The translations under genes and the position numbers were made by a program. A model generated the notes under the pieces. That model searched no databases, was not told the origin of the DNA, and saw only the letters and a program-made list of their open reading frames with translations. Shown here piece by piece: positions 2,168-29,350 of a stretch of 64,000 nucleotides of DNA. Origin of the DNA: Streptomyces marianii. Lineage in GTDB: Bacteria > Actinomycetota > Actinomycetes > Streptomycetales > Streptomycetaceae. The stretch is taken from assembly GCF_005795905.1 (NCBI RefSeq), contig NZ_VAWE01000001.1, forward strand, positions 4,887,001-4,951,000, written 5' to 3'. The stretch's first letter is position 1. Every line of letters starts with the position of its first letter.

Positions 2168-5155
2168 GTGGCGGGCGAGTCCCCCGACAAGTCGGAGCAG
2201 CAGAAGTCGTCGGGGGAGACGACTCCGGGCGAACGTGATCCGCGGCTTGCCGTGGCCCGTTCGGCGGGAGCGTCCACCGAGGGACGTGCCGATCAGTCGA
2301 CCGCGGTGTTCCGGACGCTGCCGTCGGAGCCGGAGGAGCGCGCCGAGACCTCGAAGTCGTCCGAACCGACGTCCTCGGAGGTGTCCGCCGATGCCGACGC
2401 GGGCACGGGCACGGACACGGACACGGACACGGGCAGGGACGCATCCGAGTCCGCGGCCGGTTCCGACGACGCGGTCGGATCCGCCGCCTCGGAGGACCGC
2501 CCTGCCGACGGCGACGACCGCCTCCGTGCGGCGGTGGCCGCGTGGGTCTCCGGCAAGGGTGACACGGCGAACGACACGGCGGACGGGACCGCGGACGGGA
2601 CCGCGGAGGCGGGTACCGCCGCGGACGAGGGTACGGGCGGGCGAACGGGCGGTAGGCCGGCCCCGGCCGCCGTACGCGCCGGCGGGGCCTCCGGCGACGA
2701 CGAGGCGGACGCGGGTGCTCCGGAAGCGGTGGAGGGCGGCGACGCCCCCGAACTCGCCCCCAGCGGCCACGAGGCGGCCGAGAAGGCCGGGAGGAGGCCC
2801 ACGGCGCCCCCGCCCCGCAAGTCCGTCGACGCGGAGCCGTCAGCCGGGGCGGACCAGACCGGGACGGACCGGACCGGGACGGACCAGACCGGGGTGGACC
2901 AGGCCAGGAGGAATCAGGCCAGGACGGGCCAAACCGGGACGGACCAGGGCGAGGGCGACGAGGACACGGCCGGTGGGAGCGCGGGCGGTTCGACCTCGGA
3001 CGGCTCGAGCCCGAGCGAGGAGGGCTCCCGAACCAGGACGCCCAGCTGGGCCGCCGCCCGGCGAGCCGGCAAGGACACCGCCCCTGCGGAGGACGGCCCC
3101 GGCGGAGGTCCCGCGAGCGGTACGGACGGCGTCGTCGCGCCGACGGGTTCCGCCAGGCTCGCGGTTTCCGCCGGGACGGCCGATGAAGGCGACGGCGCCG
3201 AGGAGGCCGGGGACCGGAAGGCCGTCGACCAGCCGACGGCCGTCTTCAAGGCCCTGCCCCGGCCCGCTGTGGACCAGCCGACCACCGCGCTGAAGATCAC
3301 TTCGCAGCCCGCGGCACCGAAGCGGGCCGAGAGGTCCTCCGCTTCGGCCGTCCCCTCGGCGCAGTCGGACGTGGACGGCGCGGACGCGGAGCGTCCGCGC
3401 TCGGAAGGCGCGGGGAAGGAGGCCGAGCGCACCACTGCGCTCAGGGTCACCGGGCCCCCGAGCGAGAGGCCGAAGCCCGAGCCGAGGTCCGGCATGAAGC
3501 CCGGGGCCGACGACGCTCCCGCGTCCGACGACGCTCCCGGGGCCGAGGGCACCACGGGTGAGAGGACGGCGTCCGGCCGCAGCGGTGCGTCCGGGTCCGC
3601 CCCGGCCGCACCGGCGTCCAGGCCCGCCCCCGGCCGGACTTCCGGCGACGCCTCCGAGTCCGCCGCCGAAACCGCTCCCGGCTCCGCTCCCGAGTCCGCC
3701 GCCGAGCGGACCAGCACGTTCGTACCGCTGCGGCGCGACGACGTACGTCCTGCCCCGTCCTCCGCGCAGTCGGCGCCTCCCACCGCGAAGCCGGCCGGGC
3801 CCGCGGCGTCCCCCGCCGCCCCGCCCGCCTCGCTCACGGAGCCCGAGCGCACGAAGCAGCAGCCGCTGCCGCCCCGCCCGCCGCTCGATCTGCTCGCCGA
3901 GCTGACGAACACTCCGCCGCCCCCGCAGACCCCCGTCCGCACCCTGGTGCGGCGGGTCAGGATCTGGACGCCGCTCGTCGTGGTGCTCCTGATCGTCTTC
4001 GCAGTCGTACAGGCCGTGCGTCCGCTCCCGGATCCCACCCTCTCGCTGACGGCCGAGCCGACGTACGAGTTCGAGGGTTCGGCCCCGCAGCTTCCCTGGC
4101 CCGCGAAGGGCCAGGCGTACATGGCCGCGTCCGGGCTCGGCACGCTCGGTTCCTCCGGGGAGCAGAAGCCCGTGCCGATCGCGAGCGTGACCAAGTCCAT
4201 GACGGCGTACGTGATCCTCAAGAACCACCCGCTCAAGCCGGGCGAGCCGGGGCCCATGATCGAGATCGACGCCAAGGGCGAGGCGGAAGGCCAGCTCGAC
4301 AAGACGGACAACGAGTCGACACTCAACACCGTCAAGAAGGGCGACAAGATCAGCCTGAGGGACGCGTTGGCGGCGATCATGATTCCGTCCGCGAACAACA
4401 TCGCGCGCCAGCTCGCGCGCTGGGACTCGGGCTCCGAGAAGGCGTTCGTCGAGAAGATGAACGCCGCCGCGGACGAGCTCGGGATGAAGAACACGACGTA
4501 CACGGACCCGTCGGGACTGGACGCGACGACGGTCAGCACGGCCGAGGACCAGGTCAAGCTGGGGCTGAAGCTGGTCGAGATCAAGGCCCTGATGGACATC
4601 ACCAAGCTGCCCGAGTGGACGGACCCGTCGGGCAAGACGTGGCGGAACTACAACGAGCTGCCGCCTTACGACGGCGCGCTCGGCATCAAGACCGGCAGCA
4701 CCACCAAGGCCGGTGGCAACCTCTTGTTCGCCGCCCACAAGATGGTCGGCGACACGGACCAGCTGATCGTCGGTGCCGTGCTCGCGCAGTACGACACCCC
4801 GATCCTCGGTACCGCGATCAAGGCGAGCAGGGAGCTGATGCTCGCGACGCAGGATGCCCTGAAGAACGCGACGATCGTCAAGAAGGACCAGGTCGTCGGC
4901 GTGGTCGAGGATGGTCTGGGCGGTTCGATCCCACTCGTGGCCACCAAGGACGTCAAGGCCGTCGGCTGGTCCGGCCTCACCGTCAAGCTCGAGTTGACGA
5001 ACGGCGGCAAGGTCCTGCCGCACGAGGCGGCGGCCGGCACGGTTGTCGGTTCGCTGACCGTCGGCGAGGGCGCCAGCCAGGTCACCGTGCCGGTGGCCCT
5101 CCAGAAGGCGCTCGTGGAGCCCGGGTTCGGCGCCAGGCTGACCCGCCTGGGCTGA
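2168..5155 (+). CDS. D-alanyl-D-alanine carboxypeptidase (PBP5-like) with ~600-residue disordered N-terminus
   Basis: The 995-residue protein has three parts. Residues 1-595 are low-complexity, rich in Asp, Glu, Ala, Pro, Ser and Thr. One membrane helix follows near 599-619 (TPLVVVLLIVFAVV). An extracytoplasmic peptidase S11 domain makes up the rest. The catalytic motifs are visible: S673-V-T-K676, S741-A-N743 and K841-T-G. This enzyme trims D-Ala from peptidoglycan pentapeptide stems. The start is GTG 2168, preceded by GGAGGAGG; the open frame extends 47 codons further upstream without support. The N-terminus carries a recurring Thr motif (see findings). A hairpin terminator follows. Confidence 0.9.
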   Translation: MAGESPDKSEQQKSSGETTPGERDPRLAVARSAGASTEGRADQSTAVFRTLPSEPEERAETSKSSEPTSSEVSADADAGTGTDTDTDTGRDASESAAGSDDAVGSAASEDRPADGDDRLRAAVAAWVSGKGDTANDTADGTADGTAEAGTAADEGTGGRTGGRPAPAAVRAGGASGDDEADAGAPEAVEGGDAPELAPSGHEAAEKAGRRPTAPPPRKSVDAEPSAGADQTGTDRTGTDQTGVDQARRNQARTGQTGTDQGEGDEDTAGGSAGGSTSDGSSPSEEGSRTRTPSWAAARRAGKDTAPAEDGPGGGPASGTDGVVAPTGSARLAVSAGTADEGDGAEEAGDRKAVDQPTAVFKALPRPAVDQPTTALKITSQPAAPKRAERSSASAVPSAQSDVDGADAERPRSEGAGKEAERTTALRVTGPPSERPKPEPRSGMKPGADDAPASDDAPGAEGTTGERTASGRSGASGSAPAAPASRPAPGRTSGDASESAAETAPGSAPESAAERTSTFVPLRRDDVRPAPSSAQSAPPTAKPAGPAASPAAPPASLTEPERTKQQPLPPRPPLDLLAELTNTPPPPQTPVRTLVRRVRIWTPLVVVLLIVFAVVQAVRPLPDPTLSLTAEPTYEFEGSAPQLPWPAKGQAYMAASGLGTLGSSGEQKPVPIASVTKSMTAYVILKNHPLKPGEPGPMIEIDAKGEAEGQLDKTDNESTLNTVKKGDKISLRDALAAIMIPSANNIARQLARWDSGSEKAFVEKMNAAADELGMKNTTYTDPSGLDATTVSTAEDQVKLGLKLVEIKALMDITKLPEWTDPSGKTWRNYNELPPYDGALGIKTGSTTKAGGNLLFAAHKMVGDTDQLIVGAVLAQYDTPILGTAIKASRELMLATQDALKNATIVKKDQVVGVVEDGLGGSIPLVATKDVKAVGWSGLTVKLELTNGGKVLPHEAAAGTVVGSLTVGEGASQVTVPVALQKALVEPGFGARLTRLG

Positions 5156-26132: not shown

Positions 26133-26456
26133 ATGAGCTACTTCATGTACGACGTCATGGGCGGGACGGTTGATGAACCCGACTCTGAGACGATGCGTCG
26201 GGTCCTGGATGGCCTGGCGGACGCCGACGACGAGCATCCGGATGTGTCGTTGTCACATGAGTCTGGCTGGTCCCTCAGCGCGTTCGTCGGTGGCCTGCTG
26301 CTTTGGGAAAACACCGAGGACGACTCAGTAGTCCCCGGCCAGATGCGCGCAGTCAGCACGGACGAAGTCCTACGACTGTTTGGGCTCCTCGCTGCCGGCG
26401 ACATCGCCGCGATCGACACACAGCCCTGGCAGAGGTATGGGGTCACACGCTCGTAG
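26133..26456 (+). CDS. Small acidic protein of unknown function
   Basis: 107 residues from ATG 26133 (upstream in-frame codons lack support). It starts YFMYDVMGGTVDEPDSETMR and contains ADDEHPDVSLSHESGWSLSA and LLLWENTEDDSVVPGQMRAV, with a final helix ending DIAAIDTQPWQ. It is rich in Asp and Glu, and resembles small orphan proteins of Streptomyces that accompany toxin systems as putative immunity proteins. That role is inference. It is followed directly by structured element copy 2. Confidence 0.65.
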   Translation: MSYFMYDVMGGTVDEPDSETMRRVLDGLADADDEHPDVSLSHESGWSLSAFVGGLLLWENTEDDSVVPGQMRAVSTDEVLRLFGLLAAGDIAAIDTQPWQRYGVTRS

Positions 26457-26460
26457 TCAG

Positions 26461-26596
26461 GGTCGGCGGAGCGGCTTTGGGCTGGAGCTGCCATGGGGCG
26501 AGAGATCGGGCCTGTAAGCTTTCCGCGACTCGGGCAGTCTCTGGACTGCCCGCAATAGCCCGATGTGGGCCCCGATCTTCGAGGCTCGCCCCATGG
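26461..26596. other. Structured noncoding element, copy 2
   Basis: It opens with the same 17 bases as copy 1 (GGTCGGCGGAGCGGCTT). Nested stems follow: CCATGGGGCGAG 26491-26502 with CTCGCCCCATGG 26585-26596 (12 bp, perfect), AGATCGGGCC 26503-26512 with GGCCCCGATCT 26568-26578 (one bulge), and CGGGCAG 26531-26537 with CTGCCCG 26546-26552. It starts 4 bp after a stop codon and ends 11 bp before the IS5-family inverted repeat. Before that insertion it would have lain between two convergent genes. Confidence 0.6.
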
Positions 26597-26633
26597 TGGC
26601 TGCGTAAGAAGTCATCTCAATTGGGTTTCCTGC

Positions 26634-27263
26634 CTATCGGTGTAGGTGAGTCAGAATCTCATCGCTCACGGGATAGGGGCGTTCGTGCGGCAGGAGTTGC
26701 TGGGCGGCGTCCAGCTCTCCGCCCTGTACATGGGCGTGGATCGTCCGGGCCAGCGGCGTGACGTCGGCGATGGAGACGATCCACTCGTCGGCGTAGAGAC
26801 GTGCGGCTTCGTCGGCGAGGCCGAGTTGTAGCGATCGGTGGGGTAGGGGCTGAAGATGCAGGTCGCGTTCGGGGTCCCATTGAACCCGGGCAGGAGCCCG
26901 CTTCAGCTGGCGCCTCCACGTGTTGCGGTCGGTGTGGAGGCCGTGCTCATAGTGGGACAGGCAGGCGTGCCGCAGTGCCCACCTGAAGCCTTCCCGGGTG
27001 ATCTCGACGGCGAGGACATGCTCCTGACCTTCCTTGGTGCCCCACCCGCAGCGGTACATCATCCACAGAAATGACGGCTTGATCCACGTCATCCGGTCCC
27101 GCTGCCACACTGCCGGGAATCGACCGTCTCGGGCCGCCTCCAGACCGATCTCCGGCGAGTATGCCTGGTAGACGGTGATCGTCGAGTCCGTGTGAAGGGC
27201 TCTGATCTGATGCTTGGGTTGTGTCACTGGATCAGGGTGATCACACCGCTTCACGTGCGCCAT
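26634..27263 (-). CDS. DUF4291 protein, apparent IS passenger gene
   Basis: 209 residues with the family signature almost unbroken: DSTITVYQAYSPEIGLEAAR, DGRFPAVWQRDRMTWIKPSF, LWMMYRCGWGTKEGQEHVLA, VEITREGFRWALRHACLSHY, then RVQWDPERDLHLQPLPHRSL and QLGL. The fold and role of DUF4291 are not established; some members occur near defence or nucleic-acid genes. The start is 4 nt after the transposase stop and the stop is 9 bp from the terminal repeat, so it fits exactly inside the element. Confidence 0.85.
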   Translation of the reverse strand: MAHVKRCDHPDPVTQPKHQIRALHTDSTITVYQAYSPEIGLEAARDGRFPAVWQRDRMTWIKPSFLWMMYRCGWGTKEGQEHVLAVEITREGFRWALRHACLSHYEHGLHTDRNTWRRQLKRAPARVQWDPERDLHLQPLPHRSLQLGLADEAARLYADEWIVSIADVTPLARTIHAHVQGGELDAAQQLLPHERPYPVSDEILTHLHR

Positions 27264-27267
27264 CGAA

Positions 27268-28602
27268 TTACCGCGGCGTGGCGCCTCCGAGTCTGCGGTA
27301 GCAGATGAGGGTGCAGGCGATGCTGGTGAAGGCGAGGAAGTGGTCGGCTTTGCGTTCGTAGCGCCGGTGGAGTCGGTGGCAGCCGGAGAGCCAGGCCGTC
27401 GGGTCGGCCGTGGGGCGAGTCCTGTTCCGCGCGGCCTCCCGCCGAACCGGACATGACGGTTTCCCGGTCATCCGGCTCTCCAGTGACTACTGCGCGAGTG
27501 GTCTGGCTGGCCGTTCCGAGTGGATGCGGTCGTGGCAGGTGTCGCAGGCCACGACGGTTTCGCGGCACCGGTGAAGCATGACGCGCGCCCAGTCGGAAGG
27601 CTGCCATCCGGCATGCGCGAGGTCGGCGAGAGCGCGGACGTGGTGCACTTGCACGTTGCCCTTGCTTCCGCAGATCTCGCAGGTGTCCGTCAGGAGTCTC
27701 GCGATGAGTTCCTTCTGCGGATAGTCCACCCGGACCGGTTCACGATCGGCGAGTTCCGCCGCCCGCTGCCCTGCCGTTGGAGGGGAATTCCACCGAACCG
27801 TGCCACCAGCGGTTTCCTCTTCTTCCGCTCGATACGGGCCTCGAAACAGACTCGGGGACCGCGTTCCTCCCGGCTGAACCGGGGATGCAAACAGAGCGCC
27901 TCGTGGCGCACATGGTGCGTTCGATGGTCCAGCAGTGGCGGCCCAGCCGCTGTGAGGACTCGACGCCCCTGCGGGCGATGCGGTGGGTGATGCCACGCTC
28001 GCGTAACCATCGCCGCAGATGGGAGTAGTCGTAACCCTTGTCCCCATGCAGCTTGCCCGGCTTGCGCCGCCGGGGCCCGCAGCGGGATCGGATCGGCGGC
28101 ATGCCCTTCACCAGCGGGATCAGGGCCTGACTGTCGTGCAGGTTCGCTGCCGAGATCCCGACGGAGATGGGCAGACCGGTTCGCTCGGTGATCAGATGGA
28201 TCTTTGAACCGTACTTGCCCCGGTCGACAGGATTCGGGCCTGTCAGGTCCCCCTTTTCAAGGCCCGCATGTTGACCGAGTCGATCGCGCAGCGGGACCAG
28301 TCCAGCTCGCCCCGAGACCCGAGCTCGTCGAGGGTCAGGCGGTGGAGCTTCGCCCACACCCTGGCCTTCGTCCACTCCGAGAAACGCCGGTGGGCTGTGG
28401 CTCCCGACGGCCCGAACGACGCGGACGGCAACTGCTGCCACGTACAGCCCGACGTGGCCACGAACACGATCGCGGCCAGCACCTCTCGGTCACCGTGCCG
28501 ACGCCGGCCACCACCCTGAGGCCGCGAAGGGGCCTCAGGCACCACCCGCTGAAACAGCTCCCACAACTCGTCCGGCACCAGCCGCTCAACGATCCCCACC
28601 AC
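27268..28602 (-). pseudogene. IS5-family transposase (orfA/orfB) split by a group II intron relic
   Basis: OrfA starts near GTG 28602 (VVGIVERLVPDELWELFQRV) and ends at MRALKRGT. A slippery A4G5 run allows the usual frameshift into orfB (GDLTGPNPVDRGKYGSKIHL ... HGDKGYDYSHLRRWLRERGI). OrfB is interrupted after RHCWTIERT by 514 bp of intron sequence and resumes as AWLSGCHRLHRRYERKADHF to RRLGGATPR. Excising the intron gives a continuous frame through an ATG codon rebuilt from both sides. The catalytic residues seem present, so it was once functional. Confidence 0.85.
27398..27911 (-). mobile_element. Degenerate group II intron (internal deletion)
   Basis: On the minus strand the intron begins GTGCGCC at 27911, matching the GUGYG 5' consensus. 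It ends in AC at 27398, preceded by a typical domain V hairpin at 27444-27478 (GAGCCGGATGAC...GTCATGTCCGGTTC). Between them is only the C-terminal part of a maturase: ARIERKKRKPLVARFGGIPL in one frame, then a frameshift to DYPQKELIARLLTDTCEICG, NVQVHHVRALADLAHAGWQP and the HNH-like end. The RNA core domains and the reverse transcriptase are deleted, so it cannot move and probably cannot splice. Confidence 0.78.
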
Positions 28603-28651
28603 GGCTGACAGCCTACAGATCGGCCAAATGAGATGACCTCTGAAGTGGTGC

Positions 28652-29350
28652 TCAGCTCCCGTCGTGCAGCGCGCTACTGATCTCCAGAAGGCGCCCCTCG
28701 GGCAGAGCGAATGCGTTGCTTGGGTTTCGGTAGGAGTGCCCACCGTCGTTGGTCCAGACGCCGCCTGCCGACCGCCACCGAACGGGAGCCCATCGACCCT
28801 GGTTCTCAAGGAGCATCCTTGCCACCTCGGCGGGCTCTTCGATCAAGGTGAGAGCCGCGAGCGAAGTGGTGAGAGTCGCGGCTGCATCGTCGGAAAGTAG
28901 CGCGTCGCCGAGTGTGGGGAAGAGCAGCAAGAGACGGGCGTCAGCATCACCAATGCCTTCTGCTGCCGACTGCCGAGCAACGGACAGCAGTTCCGGCCAG
29001 GCCATGCCGGGCCCCATGAAGTGACCGTCGACCACAGCGAGGGTTTCCGCTTCGGACCAGTCCGGCTGATGGATCAGATAGTCCACACCCCATTCGTCCA
29101 CGAAGTTGCGGTAGACGACGTAGATGGTGTGCCCAGAGCGCAGCGGCACACTGAACACCGGCCACTCATGCTCGGCGGACAGTGTGCGATACAGCTCCAT
29201 GGCCGCATCCCAGTCTGCGCCGAACGCGGCTCGTTGTGCATCCTCCCCCCGCAGGCAGGAGCCGAGGTGCACAGGCCAGAACAACGGGTCGTCCAGGTAG
29301 GCGTCGCCCCGGACCAAGGGGCCGCCTTCGTATCCGGGGATCTTGAGCAT
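28652..29350 (-). CDS. Hypothetical protein (232 aa), immunity-like
   Basis: The protein starts MLKIPGYEGGPLVRGDAYLD and includes VFSVPLRSGHTIYVVYRNFV, DEWGVDYLIHQPDW and a helical second half. There is no signal peptide or membrane segment. No family name is recognised. The acidic, single-domain character and the mobile context resemble polymorphic-toxin immunity proteins (inference). Its stop is 11 bp from the IS5-family terminus. ATG 29350 starts about 270 bp from the divergent gene at 29617. Confidence 0.6.
   Translation of the reverse strand: MLKIPGYEGGPLVRGDAYLDDPLFWPVHLGSCLRGEDAQRAAFGADWDAAMELYRTLSAEHEWPVFSVPLRSGHTIYVVYRNFVDEWGVDYLIHQPDWSEAETLAVVDGHFMGPGMAWPELLSVARQSAAEGIGDADARLLLLFPTLGDALLSDDAAATLTTSLAALTLIEEPAEVARMLLENQGRWAPVRWRSAGGVWTNDGGHSYRNPSNAFALPEGRLLEISSALHDGS

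Follow-up and report, generated by a model that had tools for sequence, protein, structure and literature searches.

Structure of the element in the window

The window is a 64,000-nucleotide stretch of the Streptomyces marianii genome (contig NZ_VAWE01000001.1, positions 4,887,001–4,951,000). It contains a unit in which two inverted repeats enclose a transposase of the IS5 type and a gene of the DUF4291 family (Table 1). The repeats, which a preliminary description had already located at 26608 and 28640, are present at positions 26607–26624 and 28624–28641; they are 18 nt each, 16 of the 18 positions are complementary, and 1999 nt lie between them. With an assumed 3-bp target site of the type TNA, the element is exactly 26608–28640. 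The order on the minus strand is left repeat, orfA, orfB, DUF4291 and right repeat, so that the transposase reads leftwards; the two target-site copies are unequal at the middle base (TCA/TTA).

Table 1. Features of the element in the window, followed by the kinds of cargo in elements of the same group
Feature	Position or occurrence	Strand or orientation	Basis or remark
Whole IS5-family element with DUF4291 gene as probable cargo	26608–28640	−	inverted-repeat pair; unit recurs in L010/L073, L064, L121; empty paralogue L029
Truncated copy of ~180-bp palindromic repeat, insertion target of the element	26461–26607	−	genome comparison
Target-site copy, cargo side	26605–26607	.	TAA on plus strand, TTA in element orientation; TTA also in other copies of target repeat
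Cargo-side terminal inverted repeat (right IR in element orientation)	26608–26624	−	repeat search; end fixed independently by interrupted repeat
DUF4291 cargo gene, 197 aa from GTG	26634–27227	−	PF14124, E = 4.3e-75; start from relatives; predicted ADP-ribosyltransferase fold
Conserved promoter-like block GTAATTCGATGGCG ... CACCCTG	27228–27272	−	just 5′ of likely start; similar blocks precede non-IS DUF4291 genes
orfB, last part, ends in TAA	27268–27397	−	comparison with L029 and L010
5′-truncated group II intron fragment splitting orfB	27398–27910	−	RF00029 at 27398–27480; PF21368 HNH; absent from L029 and L010
orfB, first part (DDE domain), up to intron fragment	27911–28255	−	start approximate; overlaps orfA at A4G5 run
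orfA, N-terminal transposase part, DUF4096	28243–28608	−	PF13340, E = 2.4e-23
Transposase-side terminal inverted repeat (left IR)	28624–28640	−	repeat search; matched in empty and loaded copies
Target-site copy, transposase side	28641–28643	.	TGA on plus strand, TCA in element orientation; middle base differs from cargo-side copy
Ankyrin-repeat ORF, cargo	11 elements, including one remnant	antisense	one (L214) scanned by Pfam
DUF4291, cargo	4 elements	sense	
111-aa ORF of unknown family, cargo	3 elements		
199-aa ORF, cargo	2 elements		sub-threshold SMI1 match
DUF2625, cargo	2 elements	antisense	looser ends
GNAT, cargo	1 element	antisense	Pfam
UPF0167, cargo	1 element	antisense	Pfam
SUKH/SMI1, cargo	1 element	antisense	Pfam
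87-aa cysteine-rich ORF, cargo	1 element		
LinB-like nucleotidyltransferase, cargo	1 element		looser ends

The cargo-side end is also marked by the flanking DNA. A repeat in the left flank, present elsewhere in the genome, stops exactly at this end: the five repeat copies that were compared read ...CTTTACGCAGCC or CTTTAGGCAGCC, and in the window the end of the repeat is joined to the element as TTACGCAGCC. Thus the element ends exactly at the cargo-side repeat. The other half of the interrupted repeat was not found beyond the transposase-side end. Searches for a contiguous empty site, with the two flanks joined, gave none in 100 genomes for the window element and none in 81 genomes for the element of genome G055.

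The palindromic repeat itself, ~180 bp in length, is found at 11 places in this genome, fragments included (loci including L271–L275), and relatives are present in 32 of 99 other genomes with E-values of 0.001 or better, some of these matches being very short. For one copy the folding energy is −110 kcal/mol (z = −5.1), and an Rfam scan of positions 26300–28900 gave no match to the repeat. It may be a MITE-like sequence or a structured RNA.

Transposase genes

In addition to the DUF4096 match of orfA, orfB matches DDE_Tnp_1 (PF01609, E = 4.7e-11), and this pair of domains characterizes an IS5-type transposase. Short terminal inverted repeats, as present here (16/18), are likewise a feature of the IS5 family. 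The NF033580 model (IS5) was matched by the two pieces of the transposase, with E-values of 6.5e-27 and 2.1e-23, each piece scoring less than the whole-protein cut-off of 110 bits.

orfB is interrupted by a 513-nt insert. The 3′ end of the insert matches a group II intron domain V/VI (RF00029, 52.6 bits), and the insert encodes an AI2M-like HNH domain that represents the end of an intron protein; the 5′ half is missing. Two related IS copies (L029, L010) are continuous across the insert site. The window transposase is broken because this 5′-truncated fragment splits orfB, and for the same reason the window's own copy is probably immobile now. The exact 3′ end of the fragment is as expected from incomplete target-primed reverse transcription; one weaker relative of it is found elsewhere in the genome.

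Pfam searches bear out the earlier statement that the transposase genes and DUF4291 lie between the repeats; all are on the minus strand. The preliminary description had, however, overlooked the split transposase, and also the likely later start codon of DUF4291 and the several kinds of cargo beyond DUF4291 that are considered below.

The DUF4291 gene

The longest DUF4291 open reading frame starts 4 nt after the orfB stop codon and ends 9 nt before the cargo-side repeat. Both distances had been given previously; the second holds as it stands and the first holds for the longest frame only. Relatives, whether in an IS or not, share a consistent frame only once residue 13 of the listed open reading frame is reached (GTG, position 27227), and distant homologues begin at about the same place. 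The start 4 nt after the orfB stop is thus probably not the real one, and the GTG at 27227, giving 197 aa, appears likelier.

A block like TAATTCGATGGCG...CAC(C/G)CTG precedes an ATG or GTG at this place in most rows. In many genes of both kinds, in IS and non-IS contexts (L011–L028, L103–L182), the sequence TAATTCGATGGC / AAAATCGGTGGC is situated ~40 nt before the start codon, with CAC(C/G)CTG just before the start. The conserved block is probably a promoter with a leaderless start that was brought in by the cargo. If the block belongs to the cargo, the stop codon of orfB would therefore lie within cargo-derived DNA.

Structure prediction for DUF4291 gave a confident model (pLDDT 93.4) that displays an ADP-ribosyltransferase (ART) fold. 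Conserved residues include R9, Y20, Q21, Y23, S52, Q116, D118, E120 and others; a catalytic triad of the ART type would be R-S-E, H-Y-E or R-Y-E. By this model, DUF4291 is most likely an NAD+-using enzyme of the predicted ADP-ribosyltransferase fold that would act on nucleic acid, the activity itself being a tentative assignment somewhat short of an even chance. The predicted fold makes the function of DUF4291 directly testable. The C-terminal toxin domain of RhsP2 is an ADP-ribosyltransferase acting on RNA 2′-OH groups; RhsP2 is a secreted antibacterial toxin with an R-Y-E triad (PMC12340436). DUF4291 shows 8% sequence identity to this domain, and it is a lone gene whereas RhsP2 is a secreted toxin.

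Sequence searches of solved structures with a single DUF4291 protein yielded six weak matches (E = 0.43–0.87), and a search of solved structures with a DUF4291 profile yielded none. There was no DUF4291 match in PADLOC or in NCBIfam, none among viral structures with an E-value under 0.001, and none in phages at E = 1e-5. In plasmids the DUF4291 protein was found in 19 records, all under 60% identity. An E. coli plasmid record (NZ_AP023206, positions 2510–3109; L277) has DUF4291 directly downstream of rsmA-apaG-apaH, where apaH is annotated as a bis(5′-nucleosyl)-tetraphosphatase. This neighborhood is possibly a functional hint or just an insertion point.

Empty relatives and other DUF4291 carriers

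A related IS in the same genome (L029) shows what the element looks like without cargo. It measures ~860 bp from left to right repeat, with the right repeat directly after the end of orfB, and has neither the intron insert nor DUF4291. On the two sides of the insert site it is 87% and 91% identical to the window element; there is a 2-nt gap in its orfA. Since L029 ends right after orfB, DUF4291 in the window represents extra DNA between orfB and the repeat.

It had been proposed to look in other Streptomyces genomes, at unrelated loci, for this transposase followed by DUF4291 and by the same end repeat, and such loci were found. The order repeat, orfA, orfB, DUF4291, repeat is present without the intron insert in G055 (L010/L073) and in G400 (L064; L064 and L118 are one contig, of Streptomyces sp. 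C10-9-1). A further locus, L121 in S. rochei NRRL B-2410, has both ends and a damaged transposase. Together with the window this makes four genomes with both ends around transposase and DUF4291, which supports the proposal that DUF4291 is IS cargo; in all four full carriers the gene lies inside both ends at a fixed position and in sense orientation. In L010, orfA and orfB are both open and overlap, the layout of the IS427 group, with a putative frameshift reading; this is the only DUF4291 carrier with an open transposase. The L064 transposase was also a candidate for an open one, as a tblastn alignment runs through it, but translation shows one stop in orfB. Target copies are TAA/TAA in L064 and L121 and TAA/TTA in L010.

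Thirteen IS-linked loci have the cargo-side repeat 9–11 nt behind the DUF4291 stop codon. The distance is 11 nt in L106 and 9 or 10 nt in L010, L064, the window, L121, L103, L105, L108, L114, L115, L072, L066 and L091. The constancy of this spacing favors a single captured DUF4291 cassette that would later have recombined. A query consisting of the IS together with DUF4291 matches somewhere in 382 of 392 Streptomyces genomes, i.e. IS of the same type are common; it also matches 278 plasmid records, none over 80% of the query.

The preliminary description had considered that related copies might end directly after the transposase with a different terminus, and that DUF4291 might be conserved outside any IS. 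Empty copies do end right after the transposase, but their end repeat is of the same kind. DUF4291 is indeed conserved outside any IS, but there it forms a separate, syntenic clade.

DUF4291 inside and outside the IS

DUF4291 is present in 61 of 100 genomes, that of the window included. Twenty-five distinct loci, again including the window, were judged IS-linked, i.e. they have remains of the transposase and/or the cargo-side repeat; four of them have both ends. Of the 25, L069, L083, L095 and L120 were counted on weaker evidence, and four loci with weak repeat-like sequence (4–5 mismatches; L117, L112, L011 and L093) were left out. The DUF4291 frame is uninterrupted in 23 of the 25 loci, three of which have an altered C-terminal end, and is broken in L113 and L069. 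Both transposase open reading frames are open in only one of the 25.

A quick tree was made of 110 DUF4291 genes. One set of 53 rows (SH-aLRT 99) contains every one of the 23 IS-linked rows. The other 30 rows of this set are without IS traces, as are the remaining 57 rows of the tree. Left out of the tree were further copies of the same locus, sequences identical to another, and genes that are broken, partial or mis-framed (L113, L069, L093, L102, L134, L155, L177).

Homologous flanks are shared by 5 of 253 pairs of IS-linked loci, versus 108 of 153 pairs in a non-IS set (n = 18); flank lengths are unequal, with as little as ~550 nt upstream at some IS-linked loci, where a shared flank is therefore less likely to be found. 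Judged by these flanks, IS-linked DUF4291 genes are at unrelated loci and the non-IS clade is syntenic. The median dN/dS is 0.177 for IS-linked genes (247 pairs, 23 sequences) and 0.192 for non-IS genes (18 sequences). It should be noted that the two non-IS sets of 18, for dN/dS and for flanks, were hand-picked from a 35-row clade and overlap only partly. With unrelated loci on the one hand and a retained, constrained frame on the other, DUF4291 thus appears to have moved with the IS and to have been kept while the transposase decayed.

Other cargo in sister elements

Close relatives of the L010 transposase pointed to carriers of other genes, and 99 elements of this group were mapped. Fifty-nine are empty and in 22 the matched repeats enclose 300 bp or more of cargo; of the rest, one has 89 bp left (L252), 12 are without a right repeat that passes the rule and five are without a left repeat. 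These elements are not a random sample. Eighty, of which 73 are new copies and seven were fetched again with more flank, head a ranking by similarity to a DUF4291 carrier, and the other 19 are from earlier sets, some chosen because they carry cargo. Among the 73 new elements, 16 have cargo between matched repeats. In 22 of 92 regions the true end repeat was found at a distance of 50–1200 nt behind the transposase, compared with none of 460 trials with a shuffled repeat. A TNA target is present on both sides in 21 of the 22 loaded and 52 of the 59 empty elements; the 3-bp copies are identical in 16 and 42 of these groups, respectively, so that a short target duplication is seen for the group as a whole.

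Grouping of the cargo by DNA similarity, in 27 elements of which four have looser ends, shows that well-matched ends enclose DUF4291 and seven other groups that are unrelated in DNA sequence, with two more groups on looser ends (Table 1). L037, L040, L043 and L059 pass looser matches but fail the strict end rule; the DUF2625 and nucleotidyltransferase cargoes are therefore on weaker ends. The SMI1 match of the 199-aa open reading frame implies that this group and the SUKH/SMI1 group may share one superfamily (SUKH). In those rows that are readable, the transposase-side junction of the cargo is within a few codons of a CYRR motif.

Six further loci of the same transposase clade, L183–L188 (G218, G347, G293, G003, G202 and G240), have SMI1-like, D-serine-dehydratase-like or nucleotidyltransferase genes after the transposase. 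No right repeat was found in them within ~3.3 kb, and all are among the 12 elements that failed the rule. Either their ends are more diverged or their cargo is longer.

Movement and possible exchange of cargo

Genome G236 has two ankyrin-carrier copies of 1226 bp that are 100% identical, and the match ends at the repeats. Their targets are TTA/TTA and TAA/TAA, and the 600-nt flanks are without similarity. G040 has two ankyrin-type copies with 99.9% identity over 1454 bp and no match between 400-nt flanks. Recent movement of the loaded unit is thus seen for the ankyrin carriers and not for DUF4291; a search limited to about two scored candidates per genome revealed no genome in which a DUF4291 carrier is present twice. 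Two SUKH-carrier copies in G265 are 99.9% identical over 1497 bp, but 437 nt of flank are common to both, in inverted order and with 98% identity. This pair may be a segmental copy and was set aside as proof of movement. A pair of empty elements in G148 likewise has a shared flank in inverted order.

The cargo differs between closely related transposases. L255, with ankyrin cargo, and L258, which is empty, have transposases with 94.8% identity; L224, with the 111-aa open reading frame, and L233, with GNAT, have different cargo and transposases that are 92.0% identical. By such comparisons cargo is replaced quickly in relation to transposase divergence. In a quick tree of 95 transposase rows, in which 35 of the 92 inner branches are open and from which four elements without a left repeat were dropped (L204, L208, L225 and L244), ankyrin requires 8 changes (at least 5 by starred branches) and the four full DUF4291 carriers require 4 (2 by starred branches).

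Interpretation

Insertion sequences are usually taken to carry the transposase alone. The unit in the window is very probably an IS5-family element of two-ORF, IS427-like layout whose passenger, DUF4291, occupies a slot bounded by the end of the transposase gene on one side and the right inverted repeat on the other. Acting on the two outer repeats, the transposase would move the cargo along with the rest of the element; comparison of copies indicates duplication of a 3-bp TNA target. A promoter and a leaderless start of its own probably come with the cargo. DUF4291 can stay behind, as most IS-linked copies are open and constrained though the transposase has decayed. Cargoes without DNA similarity to one another are found in this slot on the same IS backbones; its contents would therefore be replaced from time to time, by refilling or exchange, and recombination between IS copies is the simplest route.

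The arrangement could in principle be a chance neighborhood, i.e. an IS that ended after its transposase and lost its right repeat, with DUF4291 by luck in front of the repeat of another copy. The split transposase of the window, flanks that are not a clean pair and the frequency of same-type IS in Streptomyces would all fit, but the recurrence at unrelated loci contradicts it: the arrangement, with 9–11 nt from stop codon to repeat, recurs in many species, two carriers have identical TNA targets, and a sister carrier occurs in identical copies that include the cargo. This makes a chance origin highly improbable. Still less credit can be given to a role of DUF4291 in the transposition machinery, as an accessory regulator or a protein for target choice. 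Its fixed position and sense orientation in the four full carriers and the purifying selection on it inside the IS are what such a role would predict; against this, elements whose transposases are 92–95% identical lack the cargo of their sister or have another (L255/L258; L224/L233), and DUF4291 persists without a transposase and is syntenic outside any IS with a similar dN/dS (0.192).

A more serious alternative, although an unlikely one, is that the cargo is cheap baggage, acquired by repeated illegitimate joining where the DNA behind the transposase tolerates it, and of use to neither host nor element. The kinds of cargo are very mixed and occur in both orientations, and some copies have decayed (89 bp left in L252; DUF4291 broken in L113 and L069). 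However, DUF4291 outlives the transposase under purifying selection, and one cargo family can be present on several transposase lineages, as the number of changes needed for ankyrin shows, which would speak for retention or exchange.

If DUF4291 is a passenger of this kind, there is a concrete route for the spread of a widespread gene of unknown function, which is then left behind as a stable gene. At least one loaded element has reached a new site as a complete copy, and genes annotated as solitary accessory genes next to an "IS5 family transposase" may thus be IS cargo. A broader proposal, to which we give slightly less than an even chance, is that this group of Streptomyces IS5 elements serves the whole genus as a courier of single small genes, with a fixed slot that is loaded and unloaded and whose content passes from backbone to backbone by recombination. 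The genes found in it (SUKH, ankyrin, GNAT, UPF0167, ART-fold DUF4291 and LinB-like nucleotidyltransferase) would lean to conflict, immunity or resistance. If true, this would be the IS counterpart of gene cassettes, without an integrase.

Comparison with known systems

Consistent with the earlier statement that DUF4291 has no known link to insertion sequences, the word DUF4291 is absent from the open-access literature searched. A search of this literature (titles, abstract openings and a few passages) also yielded no description of these cargo-bearing IS5 elements.

By layout the element may be placed near the IS427 group of the IS5 family, for which a length of 832–865 bp, two overlapping open reading frames and target duplications of mostly 2 bp are given (PMC3281130). 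The empty form of ~860 bp, with two overlapping open reading frames and a frameshift run, is much alike. The differences are the 3-bp TNA target and the cargo, which is absent from the passages on the IS427 group (PMC3281130).

Passenger genes within a module of additional DNA are known from IS in which the module lies between the left repeat and the transposase (PMC2266710). The window element, in contrast, has its passenger between the end of the transposase and the right repeat. The elements with passenger DNA on the left-repeat side are presumably the IS231 group of the IS4 family, from the Bacillus cereus group.

A number of IS families contain members with passenger genes, called tIS (PMC7986276). 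As in a tIS, one IS with two end repeats here encloses an extra gene, which may likewise be dispensable for transposition. In the present group an extra gene lies between the ends and moves with the IS, whole-unit copies being found for the ankyrin carrier and not for DUF4291; an empty sister, whose transposase is 94.8% identical to that of an ankyrin carrier, would fit a dispensable passenger. The passages on tIS name a single IS6-family case (ISDsp3), whereas here one IS group has several cargoes in one slot and empty sisters (PMC7986276). Passenger-bearing insertion sequences are thus already known as tIS; what appears to be new here is one IS5 group of Streptomyces that carries different single genes in one fixed slot.
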